This document shows, piece by piece, positions 1 to 8,286 of a stretch of 64,000 bases of DNA. The translations under genes and the position numbers were made by a program. The stretch is taken from contig NZ_BSRQ01000020.1 in NCBI RefSeq assembly GCF_030268685.1, positions 62,001-126,000 on the forward strand, read 5' to 3'. This DNA comes from Microtetraspora sp. NBRC 13810. Lineage in GTDB: Bacteria; Actinomycetota; Actinomycetes; Streptosporangiales; Streptosporangiaceae. Below the pieces are notes generated by a model. That model saw only the letters and a list, made by a program, of their open reading frames with translations, did no database searches and was not told the DNA's origin. Numbering within the stretch: the first letter of the stretch is position 1; each line of letters starts with the position of its first letter.

Positions 1-468
1 GGTGTCGACGACCGCCACATAGGCCGGGTCGTCGTCGGTGCCGATCGACTCGACCATCCGCCGGACGCGGGACACGGTCAACCCGAGGACGGCGGCCATG
101 CCGTACCCGCGGGGGTAGGCGTCACGCATCAACTCGCCGCGGCGGCGCACGGTCGTGAGGGCTTCGGCGAAGGTCAGGGCGCCGGCGGCGACCGCGGCGG
201 GGAACGCTCCGACGGAGTGCCCGGCCACGGCGTCCGGCGTCACGCCCGCGCCGGCGAGGGCGCGGGTCGCGGCGACTCCGGCGACGCAGAGCGCGACCTG
301 CGCGGTGACGGTCGATCGCAACGCCTGGGCGGTGTCGTTCCCGGACGAGCCGGGCAGGATCCGCTCGGCCTCGGCGAGGGTCGCGGCCACGGCGGGCTGA
401 TCGGGCAGGTCGTGGAGCATCCCGGGACGCTGGGTGCCCTGGCCGGGGTACAGGAAGGCGACTCTCAC
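1..468 (-). CDS. mdcH: Malonate decarboxylase epsilon subunit (malonyl-CoA:ACP transacylase), 3' part outside window
   Basis: Transfers malonyl from malonyl-CoA to the acyl carrier subunit to prime the decarboxylase. The N-terminus shows the FabD-type PGQGTQ motif near residue 8 and the active-site serine in GHSVGAF near residue 80. The GTG start overlaps the mdcG stop by four bases (GTGA), so translation is probably coupled. It is the last visible gene of the operon and is cut by the left window edge after about 156 codons. FabD-like proteins look similar, but the mdc context settles the call. Confidence 0.88.
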   Translation of the reverse strand, partial: MRVAFLYPGQGTQRPGMLHDLPDQPAVAATLAEAERILPGSSGNDTAQALRSTVTAQVALCVAGVAATRALAGAGVTPDAVAGHSVGAFPAAVAAGALTFAEALTTVRRRGELMRDAYPRGYGMAAVLGLTVSRVRRMVESIGTDDDPAYVAVVDT

Positions 469-1148
469 GGGACGTCCCACGGGTCGTCCACCAGTTCCGG
501 GCCGTGGGCGGTGCGGGCCAGGACGGGACCGCCGGTACGGGCCCATTCGGTGAGGCTGATCCCACCACGCGGAGTCTCCAGCTGGCAGTCGACCCTGCGG
601 GGGAGGGCGGCGAAGGCGGCCGTCAGGCGCGCGGCCAGGGCCCGCTCCCACCTGCGCGGCGCCCTGATCAGCAGGTCCAGGTCACTTCCGGGGTGGGTGA
701 CCGCCCGCCCGGTGGCGAGCTCGAAGCCGACGCCGCCGATCGGGCCCCAGACGGCGTCACCGTCCAGTTCGGCGGCCAGCAGCAGGGCGGCTGCGGACAG
801 GGCGGTGGACAGGGCGGTGGACAGGGCGGCGGGCAGCCGGGGAAGGCGGGGACGCTCCCGCCGCAGGTCCTCGGGTGGTACGCGGCGGGTCACCGCGCCG
901 GCGGGTACGAGGGTGGCATGACGTTGCCGTCGCGCGGGTCCGCGCACGCCGACCGGGATCAGGCCGGGCGGATGCGGCGCCCGCCGTACGACGCCCCAGG
1001 GGCAGGCGGCGAGCGACGCGGAGGCCCAGCCGGGGAGCACGGCGTCAGCCACCGCGCTCCCGGTGAGCCGCAGCAGGTCGTGCGGGAGCGTGGTCCCCGT
1101 AAAGGTCCCCGTAAAGGTGTCCGCCATGGTCCCCGTCGTCTGCGTCAT
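465..1148 (-). CDS. mdcG: Phosphoribosyl-dephospho-CoA transferase (malonate decarboxylase holo-ACP synthase)
   Basis: Attaches the 2'-(5''-phosphoribosyl)-3'-dephospho-CoA prosthetic group to the serine of MdcC. The 227-residue length suits the family, and the nucleotidyltransferase signature GSDLDLL lies at residues 154-160, followed by an RVDCQLETPRGG block. It begins 8 bp after mdcE and overlaps mdcH. Residues about 107-118 contain a small Leu-Ser-Thr-Ala repeat encoded by near-identical 12-bp units (about 794-832), a local slippage product. An internal ATG at 1127 is an alternative start, since the first seven residues are poorly conserved in character. Confidence 0.85.
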   Translation of the reverse strand: MTQTTGTMADTFTGTFTGTTLPHDLLRLTGSAVADAVLPGWASASLAACPWGVVRRAPHPPGLIPVGVRGPARRQRHATLVPAGAVTRRVPPEDLRRERPRLPRLPAALSTALSTALSAAALLLAAELDGDAVWGPIGGVGFELATGRAVTHPGSDLDLLIRAPRRWERALAARLTAAFAALPRRVDCQLETPRGGISLTEWARTGGPVLARTAHGPELVDDPWDVP

Positions 1149-1155
1149 GGAATGG

Positions 1156-1962
1156 TCACCACCATTGGGCGGCGAGCGACTCGTGGATACGGCGGGAGGC
1201 GGCCCGGGTCCGCCGGGCGCCGGGGGAGGTGAGCCGGTCGCTCAGGTCGCGGGGGCCGCGGCGGGCCCGCCGTACCGCGGCGGTGAGCGCCTCTTTGACC
1301 TTCCGGACGTCCCCGCCGGTCGGGTCGGCGGCGTTCTCGACCTTCAGGAGCTCGTCGCACATGCCGAGTCCCGCCCAGTCGGCGACGTCGTAGGACAGCG
1401 GGGGGACACGCCGTGCCAGCTCGTCCAGCTCGTCCACCGTCCGCAGGGTCACCCTCGCCGCGGCTTCCTTGTGCATGGCGTGGACGACCACGCCGGGGTC
1501 GTCGAGCGCCAGGATCTGGTTCGCCTGGTAGCCGTGTGCGAGCAGTCCGCCGGACAGCGCCGTTCCGACGACGAGCGTGATCACCGGGTGTCCGGCGGTG
1601 CGGGCGCGGACGTAGGCGTCCACGGCGGCGGCCAGCGCGTGATGCAGGCCGAGCAGCTCTTCGACGCGTCCGTACGCCTGGCTGGGGACGTCGACCACGG
1701 CGACGATCGCGCGGCGGCGGTCGTCGGGCAGCCGGGCGTCCTCGGCGACCGTGCCGGTCAGCGTCTCGGCGATCGCGAGCCCTTCGCGCAGGCCGACCTC
1801 GCCCGCACGGGCCCGGGGGTAGGGGCTGCGCGGGTCCGGCACGACGGCGAGCAGCCGGGCGGTCCCGTCGCCGAGGGTGGCGTCCGCCGTGATCACGGAG
1901 GGGACCACGTGGGTCACGTCGCCGCCGGCGAGCGCCCGGGTCCAGGTCTGACCGCGGCTCAT
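1156..1962 (-). CDS. mdcE: Malonate decarboxylase gamma subunit (carboxytransferase-like decarboxylase half)
   Basis: With MdcD it forms the decarboxylase that releases CO2 from malonyl-S-ACP and regenerates acetyl-S-ACP, with a biotin-independent acetyl-CoA-carboxylase carboxyltransferase fold. The 268-residue protein has the crotonase-like glycine-rich segments TLVVGTALSGG and GYQANQILALDD typical of the gamma subunit. The ATG at 1962 overlaps the mdcD stop (ATGA), which fixes the start; the reading frame stays open upstream but only as antisense of mdcD. It is followed after 7 bp by mdcG. Confidence 0.87.
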   Translation of the reverse strand: MSRGQTWTRALAGGDVTHVVPSVITADATLGDGTARLLAVVPDPRSPYPRARAGEVGLREGLAIAETLTGTVAEDARLPDDRRRAIVAVVDVPSQAYGRVEELLGLHHALAAAVDAYVRARTAGHPVITLVVGTALSGGLLAHGYQANQILALDDPGVVVHAMHKEAAARVTLRTVDELDELARRVPPLSYDVADWAGLGMCDELLKVENAADPTGGDVRKVKEALTAAVRRARRGPRDLSDRLTSPGARRTRAASRRIHESLAAQWW

Positions 1963-2855
1963 GTCCGGTCTCCCTCCGGTGGTGCGGCGTGCGCCCACAC
2001 GGCCGCGAGGCCGTCCGGCGCCGGCGGATCGGCGGGGTCGACGGCTTCGAGGCGTGCTCGCAGCTCGTCGATCCGCTGGGAGCGGTGCTCGCCGGGTACC
2101 CCGTGCCGGACGGCCTCCGCCACGGCGGAACGGATGGCGGTGACGTCGTCGAGGGCCAGCACGTCCGCCAGGCCGGTCCGGGTGCGTTGCGCGCCGCCGT
2201 CGATCGACCAGATCAGTGCGTGGTCGGAGGCGTCGAACTCGGCGACGCCGGCCTCGGACTCGATCACCTGCGGACCGTCCAGCCCCAGACGGCCCTCCTC
2301 CGTCATGATCAACGTGGTGCACAGCCCGGCGGCGATGCTCATGCCGCCGAAACAGCCCAGCGCCCCGGCGATGACGCCGATGACGGGCCGAAGGGCACGC
2401 AGCTCCAGCAACGCGGAGCACACCTCGGCGACCGTGGCCAGGCCCAGGTTCGCCTCCTGCAGGCGCACGCCGCCGGTCTCCAGGAGCAGGACCGCGGCGG
2501 TCGGGATGCCGTCCCGGTTGTCCCGGGCGGCCAGAGACAGCGCGGCGGCGATCTTCACCCCGGAGACCTCGCCGATGCCGCCGCCCTGGAATGCCTGCTC
2601 GACGGCGATCACGACCGCGGGGCCCCCGCCGAGCCTGCCCTTGACCACGACGACGCCGTCGTCGGACTGCGGGACGACGCCCTGCGGCTCCAGCCAGGGC
2701 GACTCGATGCGGTCGAAGGGGCCGCACAGCTCGCGGGCCGTGCCGTCGTCGAGCAGGGCCATGGCCCGCGCCCGGGCGTCCAGTTCGATGAAGCTGGTAC
2801 GGCGGAGCAGCGCGGCCCAGTGCGGGGGCGGGGGCTCCGGACTCGCCGACGTCAT
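1959..2855 (-). CDS. mdcD: Malonate decarboxylase beta subunit
   Basis: Catalytic partner of MdcE in decarboxylating malonyl-ACP. The 298-residue protein shows the carboxyltransferase-like run VKGRLGGGPAVVIAVEQAF, then GGGIGEVSGVK and IGVIAGALGCFGGM, all typical of this family. The ATG at 2855 is chosen because it overlaps the mdcC stop by ATGA and gives the usual family length; an upstream GTG or ATG would run back into mdcC. Translational coupling to both neighbours suggests equimolar synthesis of the core subunits. Confidence 0.88.
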   Translation of the reverse strand: MTSASPEPPPPHWAALLRRTSFIELDARARAMALLDDGTARELCGPFDRIESPWLEPQGVVPQSDDGVVVVKGRLGGGPAVVIAVEQAFQGGGIGEVSGVKIAAALSLAARDNRDGIPTAAVLLLETGGVRLQEANLGLATVAEVCSALLELRALRPVIGVIAGALGCFGGMSIAAGLCTTLIMTEEGRLGLDGPQVIESEAGVAEFDASDHALIWSIDGGAQRTRTGLADVLALDDVTAIRSAVAEAVRHGVPGEHRSQRIDELRARLEAVDPADPPAPDGLAAVWAHAAPPEGDRT

Positions 2856-3148
2856 GACCCGCCCTCCTCGACGGCCTGCCGCAGGCGCAGGGTGACCACG
2901 CCGGGCGTCGCTCCGAAGTCGTTGAGCTCGAAGTTCGCGGCGACACCGTGGCGGGCGAAGAACCGTTCCAGCACGACCCGCCACACGGTGTCGAAACCGT
3001 CGACGCTGGTGCGCACCCGCACCCGCACCCGGGCGGCGCCGGCCGCCGGGGTCATCAGGACCTCCAGATCACCCGAGCCGACCAGTCCGGCATGCGCGCG
3101 CCGGGCGGCCGGCCGGTCGGCGGGAAACTCGAAGTTCAGCGTCTGCAC
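2852..3148 (-). CDS. mdcC: Malonate decarboxylase acyl carrier protein (delta subunit)
   Basis: Small carrier that holds the acetyl/malonyl group on a phosphoribosyl-dephospho-CoA arm. The 98-residue protein has the modification motif VGSGDLEVLM near residues 24-33, whose serine is the attachment site in the family. The GTG start at 3148 sits seven bases after a clear GGAGG ribosome binding site and overlaps the end of mdcB by 13 bases. The longer open frame upstream lies antisense/out of frame within mdcB and is not needed. Confidence 0.87.
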   Translation of the reverse strand: MQTLNFEFPADRPAARRAHAGLVGSGDLEVLMTPAAGAARVRVRVRTSVDGFDTVWRVVLERFFARHGVAANFELNDFGATPGVVTLRLRQAVEEGGS

Positions 3149-4029
3149 GGAAGCACCTCCCGTCCGGTGTGCGGAGAGCGCCCCTGCCAGGGCACCGTGT
3201 CGAGGAAGAGCGCGGCGGCCAGCAGGTCGCCGCTCCCGCCCGGCGACAGCCGCCGGCTGCGGAGCCGCTCGTCCAGCTCCATGAGCGCGGCACGGCCGGA
3301 GACCGTGCCGGCGCCGCCCTCGGCCAGCACCCGCTCGGCGCCGTGCCGGACGACGCGCAGGCCCTCGAGGCCGCCACGGTGCAGGACACACGTGTCGTCC
3401 AGGAGGCTCATCACCTCAAGCAGGGCGTCCAGCCGGGCCACCTCCTCGGCGAGACCGGCCGCTCTGGCCCGGCGCAGCCGCGGTAGGGCGACCTCGATGA
3501 CATGCGGGAACGCCGCCTCGGCCTCGCTCCGCGCGCCACGCACGCCGTACCGCCGCCGGGCCCGCTCACCGTGGGAGACCGTGCCCGGCGGGATCCGCCG
3601 GTCGGGCAGGGCGGCCAGCAGGGCCGCGCCGCGGGCGGCCTCCCGCTCGCCGCCGGCCCGGCCGGCGGCGGCGACCAGCAGCCCGAGCGCCCACAACGCG
3701 CCGCGATGCGTGTTCACCCCTCGGGTGATCCGCAGCATCGTCCGGTCGCCCATGCGGCCGAGCCTGCCCAGTTCCTCACGCAGACCGATGCCGACCGCCA
3801 TCCGCTCCGCCGCGTCCGCGACGGAGCGGAACGTGGCACGCAGCGCCTCGGCGGAGGCCAGCAGGAGCGGCAGGTCCATGTCGTCGTGCGCGCCGCCGCC
3901 CCGGCGGTCGACCAGGCCGGGCTTGGGACTCAGCAGGGCCTCCCCGCGCAGCGCCCGCACCGCCCCGTCGGCCAGCACGGCCGCGGACGGCCGGGGCGTC
4001 CGTCCCGGGTCGCGCCCGGTGGCGGTCAT
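3136..4029 (-). CDS. mdcB: Triphosphoribosyl-dephospho-CoA synthase
   Basis: Makes 2'-(5''-triphosphoribosyl)-3'-dephospho-CoA from ATP and dephospho-CoA, the precursor that MdcG loads onto MdcC. It belongs to the CitG/MdcB family and carries the hallmark SPKPGLVDRRGGGAH followed by DMDL near residues 34-53, and a late SPGGSGDLLAA segment. The 297 residues match the family. It starts 6 bp after mdcA and overlaps mdcC. Presence of both MdcB and MdcG means the cofactor route for the carrier is complete. Confidence 0.87.
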   Translation of the reverse strand: MTATGRDPGRTPRPSAAVLADGAVRALRGEALLSPKPGLVDRRGGGAHDDMDLPLLLASAEALRATFRSVADAAERMAVGIGLREELGRLGRMGDRTMLRITRGVNTHRGALWALGLLVAAAGRAGGEREAARGAALLAALPDRRIPPGTVSHGERARRRYGVRGARSEAEAAFPHVIEVALPRLRRARAAGLAEEVARLDALLEVMSLLDDTCVLHRGGLEGLRVVRHGAERVLAEGGAGTVSGRAALMELDERLRSRRLSPGGSGDLLAAALFLDTVPWQGRSPHTGREVLPCRR

Positions 4030-4035
4030 CGGCGG

Positions 4036-5685
4036 TCACCAGGTCCGGAAGCGGGCGGGTGGGTCATACAGTCCTCCGGACCAGGCCACGAGATCTTCGA
4101 TGCTGCGGGCCGCCAGCAGGGAGCGCTTCGCCCTGCGCACGTCGACCCCGAGGTCCGCGGGCAGCGCGACCAGGCCGTCGCGGCGCAGCTCTTCGACGCG
4201 TCGCTCGTCGATGCGGCGGCCCACCGGGGTGGCGCCCGCGACCGCGGCCACCGCGTCACGCCGCTCGGCCGGCCCGGTGGCCTTGTAGAGGTAGGCCACC
4301 CCCTCCTCGGTCACCACGTGGCTGACGTCGTCGCCATAGATCATGATCGGCGGGATGGGCATCCCGGCGTCCTTGCCCACCTGGATCGCGTCGAGTTCCT
4401 CGACGAACGCGGGGACGCCGCCGCCGCGGAAGGTCTGCGTGATCTGCACGACGAGCTTGCGTCCCCGCGACGCGGGGGCCTCACCGGCCGGCAGGCCCAG
4501 CCAGGCGGGGGAGGGGTGCCTGCGGCCGTGCGGGTCGTGCCCCATGTTGGGCGCTCCGCCGAAACCGGTCAGCCGCCCCTCGGTGACCGTCGAGGAGTTG
4601 GCGCAGGCGTCGATCTGCAGCGACGACCCGATGAACAGGTCCACCGCGTACTGCCCGGCGAGCTGGCACAGCACCCGGTTCGACCGGAGCGAGCCGTCGC
4701 GGCCGGTGAAGAACACGTCGGGGCGGGCGGCGACGTAGCGTTCGGTGCCGGGCTCCCCGCCGAAACAGTGCACCGACTCGACCCAGCCGCTCTCGATGGC
4801 GGGGATGAGCGTCGGATGCGGGTTGAGCGTCCAGTGTCTGCAGATCTTCCCGCGCAGCCCCAGTTCCTCGCCGTAGGTGGGCAGCAGCAGCTCGATCGCG
4901 GCGGTGTCGAAGCCGATCCCGTGGTTCAATGTGGTCACGCCGTGGCGCTCGTACACCCCGCGCAGCGCCATCATGGCCATCAGGATCTCCACCTGGCCGA
5001 TGTGGCGGGGGTCGCGGGTGAACAGCGGCTCCAGCGCGAACGGCCGGGGGCTCGCCACGATCAGGTCCACCCAGTCCCGGGGAACGTCCACCCGGGGGAC
5101 CCTGTCCACGAGTTCGTTCACCTGGACCACGGTCACCCCGTCGGAGAAGGCCGTCGCCTCGGCGATGGTCGGGGTGTCCTCGGTGCTCGGGCCGGTGTAC
5201 AGGTTGCCGTCGCGGTCGGCCTGCTCGGCGCAGAGCAGCGCGACCTGCGGGGTGAGATCGACGAACATCCGCGCGTACAGCTCGACGTAGGTGTGGATCG
5301 CCCCGACCTCGACCTTGCCGTCGGCCAGCAACTGGGCCATGCGCACGCTCTGCGGGCCGGCGTAGGCGAAGTCGAGCCGGTGGGCGATGCCGCGTTCGAA
5401 CACGTCCAGGTGCTCCCGGAGGCTGATCGAGGAGATCAGCAGATGCAGGTGGTGCACCACGTCCGGATCGCATTCCGCCAGCGACCCGGCGAGGAAATCC
5501 GCCTGCTTCTGGTTGTCGCCCTCCAGCGCGACCCGATCGCCCGGACGCAGCAGCGCGTGCAGCGCCTCGCGCATCCGCCCGGCGTCCAGCACCCGGCCCG
5601 AGGCGAAGGGCCGGACCGCCTCCATCCGTTCCCGCTTCGCCGTCCGCCGCCGCGTCCAGTCCCGGGTGGCCTCTGTGAGTGCCAT
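4036..5685 (-). CDS. mdcA: Malonate decarboxylase alpha subunit (acetyl-ACP:malonate ACP transferase)
   Basis: Exchanges the acetyl group of acetyl-S-ACP for malonate, starting each decarboxylation cycle. The 549-residue length is typical and the sequence contains the conserved ALEGDNQKQADFLA, STVTEGRLTGFGGAPNMG and GDDVSHVVTEEGVAYL blocks. The ATG at 5685 follows a G-rich ribosome binding site; further upstream the same frame lacks family character. It is the promoter-proximal gene of the operon. The upstream region has a direct repeat of TTTTGGG on the transcribed strand, which could be a regulator site, but no mdcR regulator or malonate transporter gene lies within the window. Confidence 0.9.
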   Translation of the reverse strand: MALTEATRDWTRRRTAKRERMEAVRPFASGRVLDAGRMREALHALLRPGDRVALEGDNQKQADFLAGSLAECDPDVVHHLHLLISSISLREHLDVFERGIAHRLDFAYAGPQSVRMAQLLADGKVEVGAIHTYVELYARMFVDLTPQVALLCAEQADRDGNLYTGPSTEDTPTIAEATAFSDGVTVVQVNELVDRVPRVDVPRDWVDLIVASPRPFALEPLFTRDPRHIGQVEILMAMMALRGVYERHGVTTLNHGIGFDTAAIELLLPTYGEELGLRGKICRHWTLNPHPTLIPAIESGWVESVHCFGGEPGTERYVAARPDVFFTGRDGSLRSNRVLCQLAGQYAVDLFIGSSLQIDACANSSTVTEGRLTGFGGAPNMGHDPHGRRHPSPAWLGLPAGEAPASRGRKLVVQITQTFRGGGVPAFVEELDAIQVGKDAGMPIPPIMIYGDDVSHVVTEEGVAYLYKATGPAERRDAVAAVAGATPVGRRIDERRVEELRRDGLVALPADLGVDVRRAKRSLLAARSIEDLVAWSGGLYDPPARFRTW

Positions 5686-5775
5686 CGCTCGCCCCCCAGC
5701 CGTGCGTTGACCTGGGTCTGCTGCCTCCAAAGGCGTTGAACTAACCCAAAAGCAGCCCAAAACGGCACAGCCTGG

Positions 5776-5815
5776 GGCGAAGGTCGTTCCTCCGGTCGGA
5801 GGTCCGGCCTTCGCC
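5776..5815 (-). terminator. Hairpin downstream of the UDG-ART gene
   Basis: Outer arms GGCGAAGG (5776-5783) and CCTTCGCC (5808-5815) enclose inner arms CCTCC (5789-5793) and GGAGG (5798-5802), giving a two-tier stem 30 bp after the stop of the minus-strand fusion gene. No U-tract is obvious, which is common in actinomycetes. It would separate that gene from the mdc promoter. Confidence 0.6.
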
Positions 5816-5845
5816 GTGTCGCAGGCTTCGGTCACCGGCGGACGC

Positions 5846-7444
5846 TCACGCCACCAGGGGCTGCTCCTCCAGCTCGGTCAGCTGCACGGTGCACAGGCCG
5901 CCGCGCTCGGTCTTCACGTCAGTCACCTTGAGCTGGGTGCCGGGGGCGAGGATGAACTCCTCCTCGCCGGTGAACGCGGAGAAACCGCGGATGCCCACGG
6001 CCCGCACGGGGAGCACCTCGAACAGCGTCCGCTTGCCGCGGCGGCCGAGGAACGCCTGGGCTACGCCGAGCTCCGAGGTGCACGAGGACACGCCCCACCA
6101 AGTCACGGTCCGGCCCAGCGGGTACTGCGCCCGCAGGTCCATCGACACGCCGCGCCACAGCGGCTCCCTGCGGGCCGGCAGCCGGGACACGGCCGAGAAC
6201 AGCAGCCGCAGATACGGGAGGTACGGCACGATCCGGGTGCGGTCCGGGGTGCGCAGCGTGGCGTTGATCTGCCGGTAGAAAGCCGACTCGCAGGTGTAGA
6301 GATAGAGGGCGGCGACCTCGTCGGCGGACAGGCCCTCGGCCGCCCGCGTCTCGCCGAACCGGTGCGACTGCTCCACGTACCAGTCGAGACCGGACAGCAG
6401 CTTGGCCACCGGGGCGACGGCCTCGCGGAAGTCCATGAGCGGGGTGTCGAACACGCCGGTGATCGCCGGCAGCACCAGCCCCTCGTCCTTGACCCCGGCG
6501 AGCCGTTCGAGGTAGAGCTGGTGCAGCTCCATCGTGGACGCGATGAACGCCCCCATCCGATCGGCCGTGGCCGCGTCCGCCCCGCCGGTCAGCGCCGTGC
6601 GCGCGTTCCATCCCCTGCCCGGCAGCCAGTCGATCTCGTCGGCGCCGAGCGCGGCGAGGGCCGCGTTCACCGTGGCGAAGTGGTCCCCGTCGCAGAAGAT
6701 GTCGCCCTGTGCCGCGGGGTTGGGGTGGTCGATGTGCCGGACCTCCACGTCGGGGTACTTCCGCTGCAGCCTGACCACGACCTGCTTCAGGCCGCGGGCG
6801 TGCACCCCCCACCACGCGAACACCACGCCGCGGTCCTGCTCGTCGGCGTCCTGCTTGGCCTTGAGGATCTCCTCGACGAGCCTCTCGACGACCGGCCGCC
6901 AGAACGCGGTGTGCCGGTCGGTGGGCATCGCCCCGTCGCCGCTGGCGGTGAGCGCCGCGTTCAGCAGCAGCACGCCCTGGGTGAGCATCGCCTGGAACCA
7001 CTCCGGCGGCTGCACGGTGTCGTGCTCCTTCAGCAGGGCGCGGAGGTCGGCGATCGGCGTCTTCTTGGGGATGCCGTGCTTCCACATCGCCGCCGCCTTG
7101 ATGATGCAGCGGATGGTGATGACCTTGCCGAACTGGCGGTCCTCCCAGTCGTGGAAGGTGTTGTCGAACATGGCGATGCCGGTGGCGCTCTCCGCCCGCG
7201 GGTACGGGTTCTGGCCGAAGACGACGACCTTCCACTTGTGCGGCGGGTTGGGCTTGAGCGCCTGGAAGGTCAGCTCCCTGACGGGCACGATCTCCGGGCT
7301 GCGTTCCGGGCCGATGAACGTGGCCGCGGCCGGTTGCGCCTCGATGACCGGCTTCAGGAGCGGCAGCCACGGCTCGCCGCCGCCCTTGAAGAGGTCGGCG
7401 AGGGCCAGCGGGTCGGCCGGGGTGGGTGCGGTGCTGTCGCTCAT
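5846..7444 (-). CDS. Fusion protein: uracil-DNA-glycosylase-like domain plus ADP-ribosyltransferase domain
   Basis: A 532-residue protein with two recognisable domains. Residues about 1-275 resemble family-1 uracil-DNA glycosylase: GQNPYP at 77-82 (canonical GQDPYH), GVLLLNAALT at 157-166, VFAWWGVHA at 208-216 and the catalytic-loop-like HPNP at 240-243. Residues about 300-530 look like an R-S-E mono-ADP-ribosyltransferase: arginine in LWRGVS (429-434), the STS-like SSCTS (453-457) and the glutamate motif GEEEF (493-497). A plausible ribosome binding site (GGAG, 7 bp spacing) fixes the ATG at 7444. The gene is divergent from a macrodomain gene, suggesting a paired ADP-ribosylation writer and eraser or reader. 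Target and function are inference; a plain DNA-repair role is the main alternative. Confidence 0.8.
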   Translation of the reverse strand: MSDSTAPTPADPLALADLFKGGGEPWLPLLKPVIEAQPAAATFIGPERSPEIVPVRELTFQALKPNPPHKWKVVVFGQNPYPRAESATGIAMFDNTFHDWEDRQFGKVITIRCIIKAAAMWKHGIPKKTPIADLRALLKEHDTVQPPEWFQAMLTQGVLLLNAALTASGDGAMPTDRHTAFWRPVVERLVEEILKAKQDADEQDRGVVFAWWGVHARGLKQVVVRLQRKYPDVEVRHIDHPNPAAQGDIFCDGDHFATVNAALAALGADEIDWLPGRGWNARTALTGGADAATADRMGAFIASTMELHQLYLERLAGVKDEGLVLPAITGVFDTPLMDFREAVAPVAKLLSGLDWYVEQSHRFGETRAAEGLSADEVAALYLYTCESAFYRQINATLRTPDRTRIVPYLPYLRLLFSAVSRLPARREPLWRGVSMDLRAQYPLGRTVTWWGVSSCTSELGVAQAFLGRRGKRTLFEVLPVRAVGIRGFSAFTGEEEFILAPGTQLKVTDVKTERGGLCTVQLTELEEQPLVA

Positions 7445-7617
7445 CGTGGGCTCCGGGGTTTGTGAGCCGTGCCGGTGACGGCACGGGAGAGGTAAATGGG
7501 GGAATTGTGCCGTGTGAAGATCCCGGATGCGATGTCGAACAAGATCTGTTCTGTCGGTGCGGGGCGCTATCTTCGTGAACGTTCGGAAACACCCCCTCCC
7601 CATGACCGGAGTGAACC
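7445..7617. promoter_or_regulatory. Shared divergent promoter region of the UDG-ART and macrodomain genes
   Basis: 173 bp separate the two divergent start codons, and both genes have their own GGAG-type ribosome binding site at the edges. The segment is somewhat less GC-rich than its surroundings, which suits back-to-back promoters. I could not pick certain -10/-35 boxes or a clear operator by eye. The geometry implies that the two genes are regulated together. Confidence 0.45.
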
Positions 7618-8286
7618 ATGATCGACGAGCCGGTGAAGCCGCTGCTCAAGGTAGTGCTGGCGGACATCAACGCCGAGGTGGTGCAGGCGTGGCGGGCCGC
7701 GTTCGCCGACACCCCCGAGATCGAGATCTACCAGGGGTCGATCCTGGACCAGCAGGTCGATGCCTGGGTCAACCCGACCAACTCCCGGGGGCGGATGGAC
7801 GGCGGGGTCGACGCGGCCATCAAGCGCTACCTCGGGGCGGGGATCCAACTGCGCGTCCAGCGGGCGATCCGCGACCGGTTCGACGGGTCGCTGCCGGTGG
7901 GCAGCGCCGTGTGCGTGCCGTCGGGGGCGGTCAACCCGAAGTACCTGATCTCGACGCCGACGATGGAGCAGTCGGCGCAGAACGTGAGCGAGACGCTGAA
8001 CGTGGCTTTGGCGTGCGCCGCCGCGTTCCAGGCCGTGCACGCGCAGAACGACGAGGAGCCGGGCAGCATCAAGTCGGTGGCGCTGGTGGGCATGGGCGCG
8101 GCGACCGGCCGGGTGCCCGCGCGGGTCTGCGCCAACCTGATGTGGACCGGCTACACGCTGTTCAACGACCACCACTTCCGGGACTACGACGACCTGCGCA
8201 GCACGATCCGCGAGCAGCTCGACGACCTGGAGAGCAGCCCCGTGGAGCAGCGGGTGCGGATCAGGCCGCCGAGGTCCCGCCGCTGA
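7618..8286 (+). CDS. Macrodomain protein (ADP-ribose binding or hydrolysing)
   Basis: A 222-residue, single-domain macro protein. The nucleotide-binding loop reads WVNPTNSRGRMDGGVDAAI at about residues 57-75, and a second loop GMGAATGRVPARV near 160-172 replaces the usual GIGxGxxG-type phosphate loop. The LPVGSAVCVPSG block in between is typical of the bacterial/phage-like macro subgroup with the NPTNS or SPANS motif. The ATG follows a GGAG ribosome binding site. It is divergent from the ADP-ribosyltransferase fusion, so its probable job is to remove or bind the ADP-ribose mark that the partner makes (inference). Confidence 0.85.
   Translation: MIDEPVKPLLKVVLADINAEVVQAWRAAFADTPEIEIYQGSILDQQVDAWVNPTNSRGRMDGGVDAAIKRYLGAGIQLRVQRAIRDRFDGSLPVGSAVCVPSGAVNPKYLISTPTMEQSAQNVSETLNVALACAAAFQAVHAQNDEEPGSIKSVALVGMGAATGRVPARVCANLMWTGYTLFNDHHFRDYDDLRSTIREQLDDLESSPVEQRVRIRPPRSRR

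Follow-up and report, generated by a model that had tools for sequence, protein, structure and literature searches.

A mobile actinobacterial gene pair of a uracil-DNA glycosylase-like ADP-ribosyltransferase and a macrodomain protein, with a predicted DNA-damage promoter

Introduction

What does a bacterium do with a protein that joins a DNA-repair fold to an ADP-ribosyltransferase, encoded back to back with a macrodomain protein? This question is raised by a 64-kb stretch of high-GC actinobacterial DNA from Microtetraspora sp. NBRC 13810 (contig NZ_BSRQ01000020.1; hereafter the window, meaning the whole stretch, whose numbering gives all coordinates). An earlier note, made from the sequence alone, had described a divergent pair in it: a minus-strand fusion of a uracil-DNA glycosylase (UDG)-like domain with an ADP-ribosyltransferase (ART) domain, here called UDG-ART, and a plus-strand macrodomain protein. 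We found both open reading frames where the note had placed them, with their domains matched, and every motif that it had quoted from the fusion protein (GQNPYP, GVLLLNAALT, HPNP, LWRGVS, SSCTS, and GEEEF). The note had also known of no described system with this exact fusion, and our searches of the open literature gave no description of it either, although one could still exist in subscription journals.

Damage-tied reversible ADP-ribosylation is well known in eukaryotes, and there are few bacterial examples. SCO6735 of Streptomyces coelicolor is a macrodomain hydrolase that acts on ADP-ribosylated DNA, has a RecA-NDp promoter, and is UV-inducible (PMC5087735, PMC9411070); damage-induced actinobacterial macrodomains such as this one might counter an endogenous transferase. 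In the pair studied here, a transferase joined to a lesion-recognition fold comes together with a macrodomain in one transferable unit, sometimes one polypeptide, linked to a defined damage regulator, which opens the question to direct tests in laboratory Streptomyces. On balance, the pair is probably a two-gene module that spreads horizontally and carries out DNA-damage-induced, reversible ADP-ribosylation, and in which the transferase depends on its partner in the manner of a toxin-antitoxin system.

Results

We searched 343 Streptosporangiaceae genomes with UDG-ART and with the macrodomain and scanned about 85,000 species genomes, the latter yielding 210 related stretches, of which the best 80 were kept. 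UDG-ART sequence was present in 35 of the 343 family genomes, in some of them decayed, and the macrodomain gene adjoined it in all 30 family loci that were fetched. When the macrodomain was the query, exactly 30 close matches were returned, the intact ones all beside UDG-ART (30/30) and none alone, while the next-best matches were generic macrodomains at about 43 bits. Both genes occur in 78 of the best 80 loci of the wide scan, whose hosts are Streptosporangiaceae, Micromonosporaceae, Streptomycetaceae, and Nocardia; in the remaining two the sequence breaks off at a contig edge, so that linkage holds in 78 of the 78 assessable loci. L162 and L163 were considered as solo UDG-ARTs and rejected as contig-end artefacts. 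The earlier note would have counted a pair not conserved together across genomes as a refutation; the two genes are conserved together.

DNA homology between loci stops a few bases past the outer stop codons, at 3-6 nt beyond the UDG-ART stop and at the end of the macrodomain gene in pairwise comparison. The flanking genes differ nearly everywhere, with none common to more than 2 of 24 loci. Most loci are divergent, some Streptomyces carry a macrodomain-first operon, and others encode a single macrodomain-UDG-ART chain, of which WP_251091506.1 is an annotated example; in the tree, the fused clade is nested among the operon loci. Distances among UDG-ARTs and among macrodomains co-vary (Mantel r 0.71, 0 of 2,000 permutations), and both genes are under purifying selection, with median ratios of nonsynonymous to synonymous substitution rates (dN/dS) of 0.16 and 0.18. 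The pair is one self-contained evolutionary unit that moves horizontally as a cassette between soil actinobacteria, and it shows both the strict linkage and the transfer as a unit that mark toxin-antitoxin systems. Neither UDG-ART nor the macrodomain had relatives in scans of viral contigs, and the UDGs in phage records are all plain ones; a phage origin or carriage of the cassette was dropped on these grounds.

Copies that have lost one partner bear on how the two proteins depend on each other. One genome (G210) holds, besides an intact cassette elsewhere, a second UDG-ART with an open frame and no macrodomain (L084, G210:C8:929867-931426). This unpaired copy lacks the promoter motif described below and breaks 24 of 245 near-invariant sites; in the other copies the median is 1 and the maximum 5. 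In two further genomes (G302 and G308), an intact macrodomain is kept beside a broken UDG-ART. Together, the decay of the solo copy and these two broken copies fit an active transferase that would need its macrodomain.

The promoter sequence ties the cassette to DNA damage. The macrodomain gene is preceded by a RecA-NDp motif that is the only match in the window, where 0.01 were expected. The consensus, TGTCRGTG-N8-TANNNT, is reportedly that of Gamulin and colleagues from 2004, and we validated it in this genome by its matches at recA and uvrB. Across the whole 9-Mb genome it gave 22 matches versus 4 for a reversed control, and it precedes recA, uvrB, a UvrD-type helicase gene, two LigD-type genes, a DnaQ-UvrC-type nuclease gene, and others. 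The genome also encodes pafB-pafC-tatA-tatC; these genes, like those just listed, were named from their protein sequences. Of 96 loci, 69 have the motif upstream of the macrodomain gene in its strict form and 86 in a relaxed form, every time at the canonical spacer of 8 and in 0 of 96 at spacers of 4-7 or 9-12. All 17 co-directional loci have it, and there it precedes both proteins, whether in an operon or fused. Among the 79 divergent loci, 25 have a second motif before UDG-ART, and LexA boxes of the SOS type were found in none of the 79 intergenic regions. PafBC, with which the RecA-NDp form is recognized, is a LexA/RecA-independent activator of actinobacterial DNA-repair genes (PMC6789036, PMC8223512) and is activated by single-stranded DNA (PMC11804915). 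With a promoter of the consensus form and PafBC encoded in the same genome, the macrodomain gene is, by promoter sequence, a predicted member of the PafBC (RecA-NDp) damage regulon. The motif-linked loci of this genome (L199-L220) amount to a compact DNA-repair regulon, in which the LigD-type genes are primase/ligase-like. A protein resembling AlkZ and a regulator resembling ClgR also belong to it, as do several genes without a name, which may be new damage-response genes.

The N-terminal half of UDG-ART receives no name from Pfam. Profile searches place it in the UDG superfamily, with matches to solved Ung structures at 3.7e-13 and 1.4e-11 in addition to the nearest one (Table 1), and to NCBIfam TIGR00628 (ung) at 6.5e-17, which is under the equivalog cut-off. 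The 532-residue frame is taken to start with the ATG at 7444, where a GGAG ribosome site is present; another in-frame ATG, at 7603, is a possible start, but homologues align only from about 7444. Residue conservation was assessed over 99 distinct UDG-ART homologues, and over 96 sequences for the macrodomain. The first five residues of GQNPYP, the LLLN segment, and the His of HxNP do not vary among the 99. In every one, Asn takes the place of the catalytic Asp of GQDPY (GQNPY), and the intercalating Leu191 of motif B, part of HPSPLS in active family-1 Ung, is Ala in 98 (H-x-N-P-A-A); the roles of motifs A and B have been described (PMC10359453). The family-1 UDG-like domain of the earlier note therefore stands as a UDG-superfamily fold with its pocket residues kept, but it does not carry the motifs of an active family-1 Ung, its motif A being GQN rather than the canonical GQD. 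A phylum-wide search for intermediates between UDG-ART and ordinary UDGs gave none, with scores dropping from more than 900 to less than 40 bits. The loss of the catalytic Asp and the intercalating Leu, with the pocket Asn and His kept, suggests that the domain is a reader of uracil or another lesion, binding it without efficient excision.

The C-terminal half matches ART folds, as the earlier note had proposed. Its match to PF01129 is over the cut-off of that family, and a predicted model (predicted local distance difference test score, pLDDT, 74.8) returned only R-S-E ARTs as top Foldseek matches, the best being Vis (3e-11) and Tre1 (2e-9). R431, S453-S454-C-T456, and E494-x-E496, the signature of the R-S-E (cholera-like) superfamily, are present in 99 of 99 homologues. 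In the ARTT motif X-X-aromatic-X-X-E/Q-X-E, a Glu in position six is associated with arginine as the acceptor, and a Gln there with asparagine or guanine (PMC7827354). The loop SAFTGEEE has the X-X-aromatic-X-X-E-X-E form, and the nearest structures are arginine-modifying enzymes. Because the loop is E-x-E, the predicted acceptor is most likely an arginine on a DNA-bound protein, with DNA itself less likely. In 296 genomes of the phylum, the only other PF01129 ARTs (L193 and L196) are C-terminal domains of large secreted-toxin-like proteins.

The partner protein has the macro fold, the Asn of the ADP-ribose loop, and GG-x-D; its predicted model (pLDDT 85.9) matched macrodomains in Foldseek. 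By eye, N55 and D65 lie at MacroD-like positions, and Lys69 stands where the MacroD dyad has its His. Outside the cassette, the family that matches the macrodomain best is PHROG 2613 (2e-40), a functionally uncharacterized phage family. Related macrodomains (phage records H65-H83; L197 and L198) occur in large Sinorhizobium phages and between the side-tail-fibre and fibre-assembly genes of Gifsy-1-like prophages.

Table 1. Features of the cassette in window coordinates
Feature	Position	Strand	Evidence or remark
UDG-ART fusion gene, 532 aa, start MSDST	5846..7444	-	99 distinct homologues
R-S-E ADP-ribosyltransferase domain, residues 362-526	5867..6361	-	PF01129 4.5e-11; Foldseek
ARTT loop SAFTGEEE, residues 489-496; Phe491, Glu494, and catalytic Glu496 in 99/99	5957..5980	-	Motif PMC7827354
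ART S-S-C-T segment, residues 453-456 (S of R-S-E), 99/99	6077..6088	-	Homologue alignment
ART catalytic Arg431 (R of R-S-E), 99/99	6152..6154	-	Homologue alignment
Ung-superfamily domain, residues 14-280	6605..7405	-	Profile search: 5x3g nearest solved structure (8e-15), then bacterial Ung
UDG motif B HPNP, then Ala244; His240 in 99/99	6716..6727	-	Motif definitions PMC10359453
UDG uracil-pocket segment LLLN, Asn162 in 99/99	6959..6970	-	Homologue alignment
UDG motif A GQNPYP; Asn79 (Asn in 99/99) where E. coli Ung has Asp64	7199..7216	-	Homologue alignment
Inverted repeat CCGTGCCG-GTGA-CGGCACGG, 8 bp and perfect, shortly before the UDG-ART start	7467..7486	.	Possible operator or RNA hairpin
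RecA-NDp/PafBC-type DNA-damage promoter TGTCGGTG-N8-TATCTT	7552..7573	+	44 nt before macrodomain ATG
Macrodomain gene, 222 aa	7618..8286	+	PF01661 1.5e-14; model and Foldseek
Macrodomain ligand loop N55-D65 (NSRGRMDGGVD)	7780..7812	+	N55, G62, G63, and D65 in 96/96

Discussion

The earlier note had likened the pair to DarT-DarG, and this comparison survives in part. Like DarT-DarG, the cassette is a linked gene pair of transferase and macrodomain with a DNA-damage connection, and the PafBC promoter supports the idea of an opposing transferase and macrodomain with a DNA-linked role. The transferase, however, is not DarT-like: UDG-ART has no DarT match in Pfam or PADLOC, is an R-S-E PF01129 enzyme with E-x-E rather than Q-x-E, and carries its DNA-recognition fold as a separate UDG-like domain; the layout of the pair is divergent or fused. 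At 222 aa, the macrodomain protein aligns with no more than the first quarter of the DarG model (NF048014, 1-79 of 338, E 0.012) and lacks the C-terminal, toxin-binding part, and the neighborhood is not one of phage defense. Judged by sequence, the analogy is only functional; the pair resembles DarTG in outline and is not a member of it.

Other relatives each share one part of the cassette. The arginine ADP-ribosyltransferases Vis and Tre1 are the closest solved ART structures and have R-S-E and an E-x-E ARTT loop, but they are secreted or injected toxins without a UDG domain, and the immunity protein of Tre1 is not known to be a macrodomain. The UDGs 5x3g, of the BdiUng type, and 3tr7, of family 1, have the same fold, the GQxPYPRPES segment, LLLN, and the motif-B His, whereas the cassette protein differs from such enzymes in its motif A (Asp to Asn), its motif B (Leu to Ala), and its ART fusion. 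SCO6735 is likewise an actinobacterial macrodomain under a RecA-NDp promoter, but it has not been described with a linked transferase, and its structure did not come up among the relatives of the cassette macrodomain. SirTM-macrodomain operons also encode a stress-linked writer and eraser together, but their writer is sirtuin-type, the stress is oxidative, and the target is lipoyl-linked (PMC7050489).

In the module that we favor, the UDG-like domain would read uracil or another lesion instead of repairing it and would tether the C-terminal R-S-E transferase to damaged DNA, where the transferase would modify a nearby acceptor. The macrodomain would remove or mask the product, or bind the transferase, and so keep the transferase harmless; its loss would therefore select against an active transferase. 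Because PafBC senses single-stranded DNA, a lesion made or stabilized by the transferase would raise the macrodomain level, closing a self-limiting feedback loop.

Several observations weigh against this module. Most divergent loci, the one in this window included, have the damage promoter only before the macrodomain gene. In Nocardia crassostreae (L187), an intact UDG-ART stands beside a macrodomain gene with an in-frame TAG in place of the otherwise invariant Trp50, which may be a sequencing error, a site of readthrough, or a real loss. We keep the reader role of the UDG domain conditional because Mug/TDG enzymes have Asn in the corresponding motif (GINPG), which makes the motif-A Asn compatible with glycosylase activity (PMC10359453). 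Finally, the known hydrolases of arginine-linked ADP-ribose belong to the ARH type, whereas the substrates of active macrodomains are Asp/Glu esters, phosphate ends, or DNA (PMC7050489). The chemistry expected of an E-x-E transferase does not match that of a macrodomain partner, unless the acceptor is something other than arginine or the macrodomain neutralizes by binding alone; a third option is that the macrodomain erases arginine-linked marks and is in this respect a new type.

The same evidence can be read in other ways. By analogy, the cassette could be a bacterial counterpart of PARP signaling, in which a catalytically silent glycosylase domain reads lesions and recruits a protein ART to damaged DNA, the macrodomain takes the mark off again, and the whole is carried by a mobile cassette under PafBC control. 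In eukaryotic PARP1 and PARG, an ART likewise comes with a domain that reads damage, and the eraser is a macrodomain; the parallel is one of analogy only, since the readers have no sequence relationship and the cassette ART is R-S-E rather than H-Y-E, and we regard this version as tentative. Phage defense would have the UDG domain sense uracil-containing or modified phage DNA, the ART modify DNA or a replication protein and so halt infection, and the macrodomain act as a DarTG-like antitoxin. It would account for the strict two-gene linkage, the patchy spread (35/343 family genomes), the transfer of the bare cassette, the macrodomain-first order of the operons, the decay of the unpaired transferase, and the broken UDG-ARTs beside intact macrodomains in G302 and G308. 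We nevertheless consider it unlikely: the promoter is that of a DNA-repair regulon, the transferase fits no PADLOC model, the cassette was not found in phage records or viral contigs, and the flanking genes mostly belong to ordinary metabolism, with PADLOC on 104 flanking proteins giving only weak or generic matches, the recurrent ones apparently from ABC transporters and other common folds.

The remaining explanations turn on what the two halves of UDG-ART act upon. The UDG domain might flip a base so that the ART modifies the base, the sugar, or an abasic site, and the macrodomain would then repair the DNA. The base-pocket Asn162 and His240, kept in all homologues, are in keeping with such a target, as is a macrodomain in the damage regulon, and the cleaning of ADP-ribosylated DNA by a macrodomain has precedents in SCO6735 and DarG. 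Yet Leu191 is missing, against classical base flipping, the nearest structures are protein-arginine ARTs, and the ARTT loop is E-x-E with Phe, where guanine-modifying ScARP has Trp and Gln (PMC7827354), which makes DNA modification quite improbable. It is very doubtful that the protein is an active glycosylase for damaged DNA whose ART tail is only regulatory, for example in auto-modification, with ADP-ribose chemistry secondary. The UDG domain is conserved as much as the ART, and the Asn of Mug/TDG-type enzymes speaks for this option, but the catalytic Asp is replaced throughout, and the obligate macrodomain partner points to an ADP-ribose product that is a hazardous or signaling species. That UDG-ART is a polymorphic toxin released by secretion or injection, with the macrodomain as its immunity protein, seems extremely improbable. 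The other actinobacterial PF01129 domains do form the C-termini of large secreted-toxin-like proteins; UDG-ART, however, has no delivery domain or repeats and begins with a DNA-repair fold, the promoter belongs to a damage regulon, and immunity to arginine ARTs is usually ARH-type.

Other features of the locus

The inverted repeat upstream of UDG-ART is conserved in 4 of 69 intergenic regions, against 0.36 expected; being limited to these loci, it was rejected as a generally conserved operator before UDG-ART. Two AAGATC repeats also lie in the intergenic region, at about 7517-7548, and an autoregulatory operator formed by the inverted repeat or the AAGATC repeats is possible. On the other side of UDG-ART, a minus-strand malonate decarboxylase cluster (465-5835; MdcG, CitG-like MdcB, carboxyl transferase, and alpha subunit) ends directly beside the cassette.
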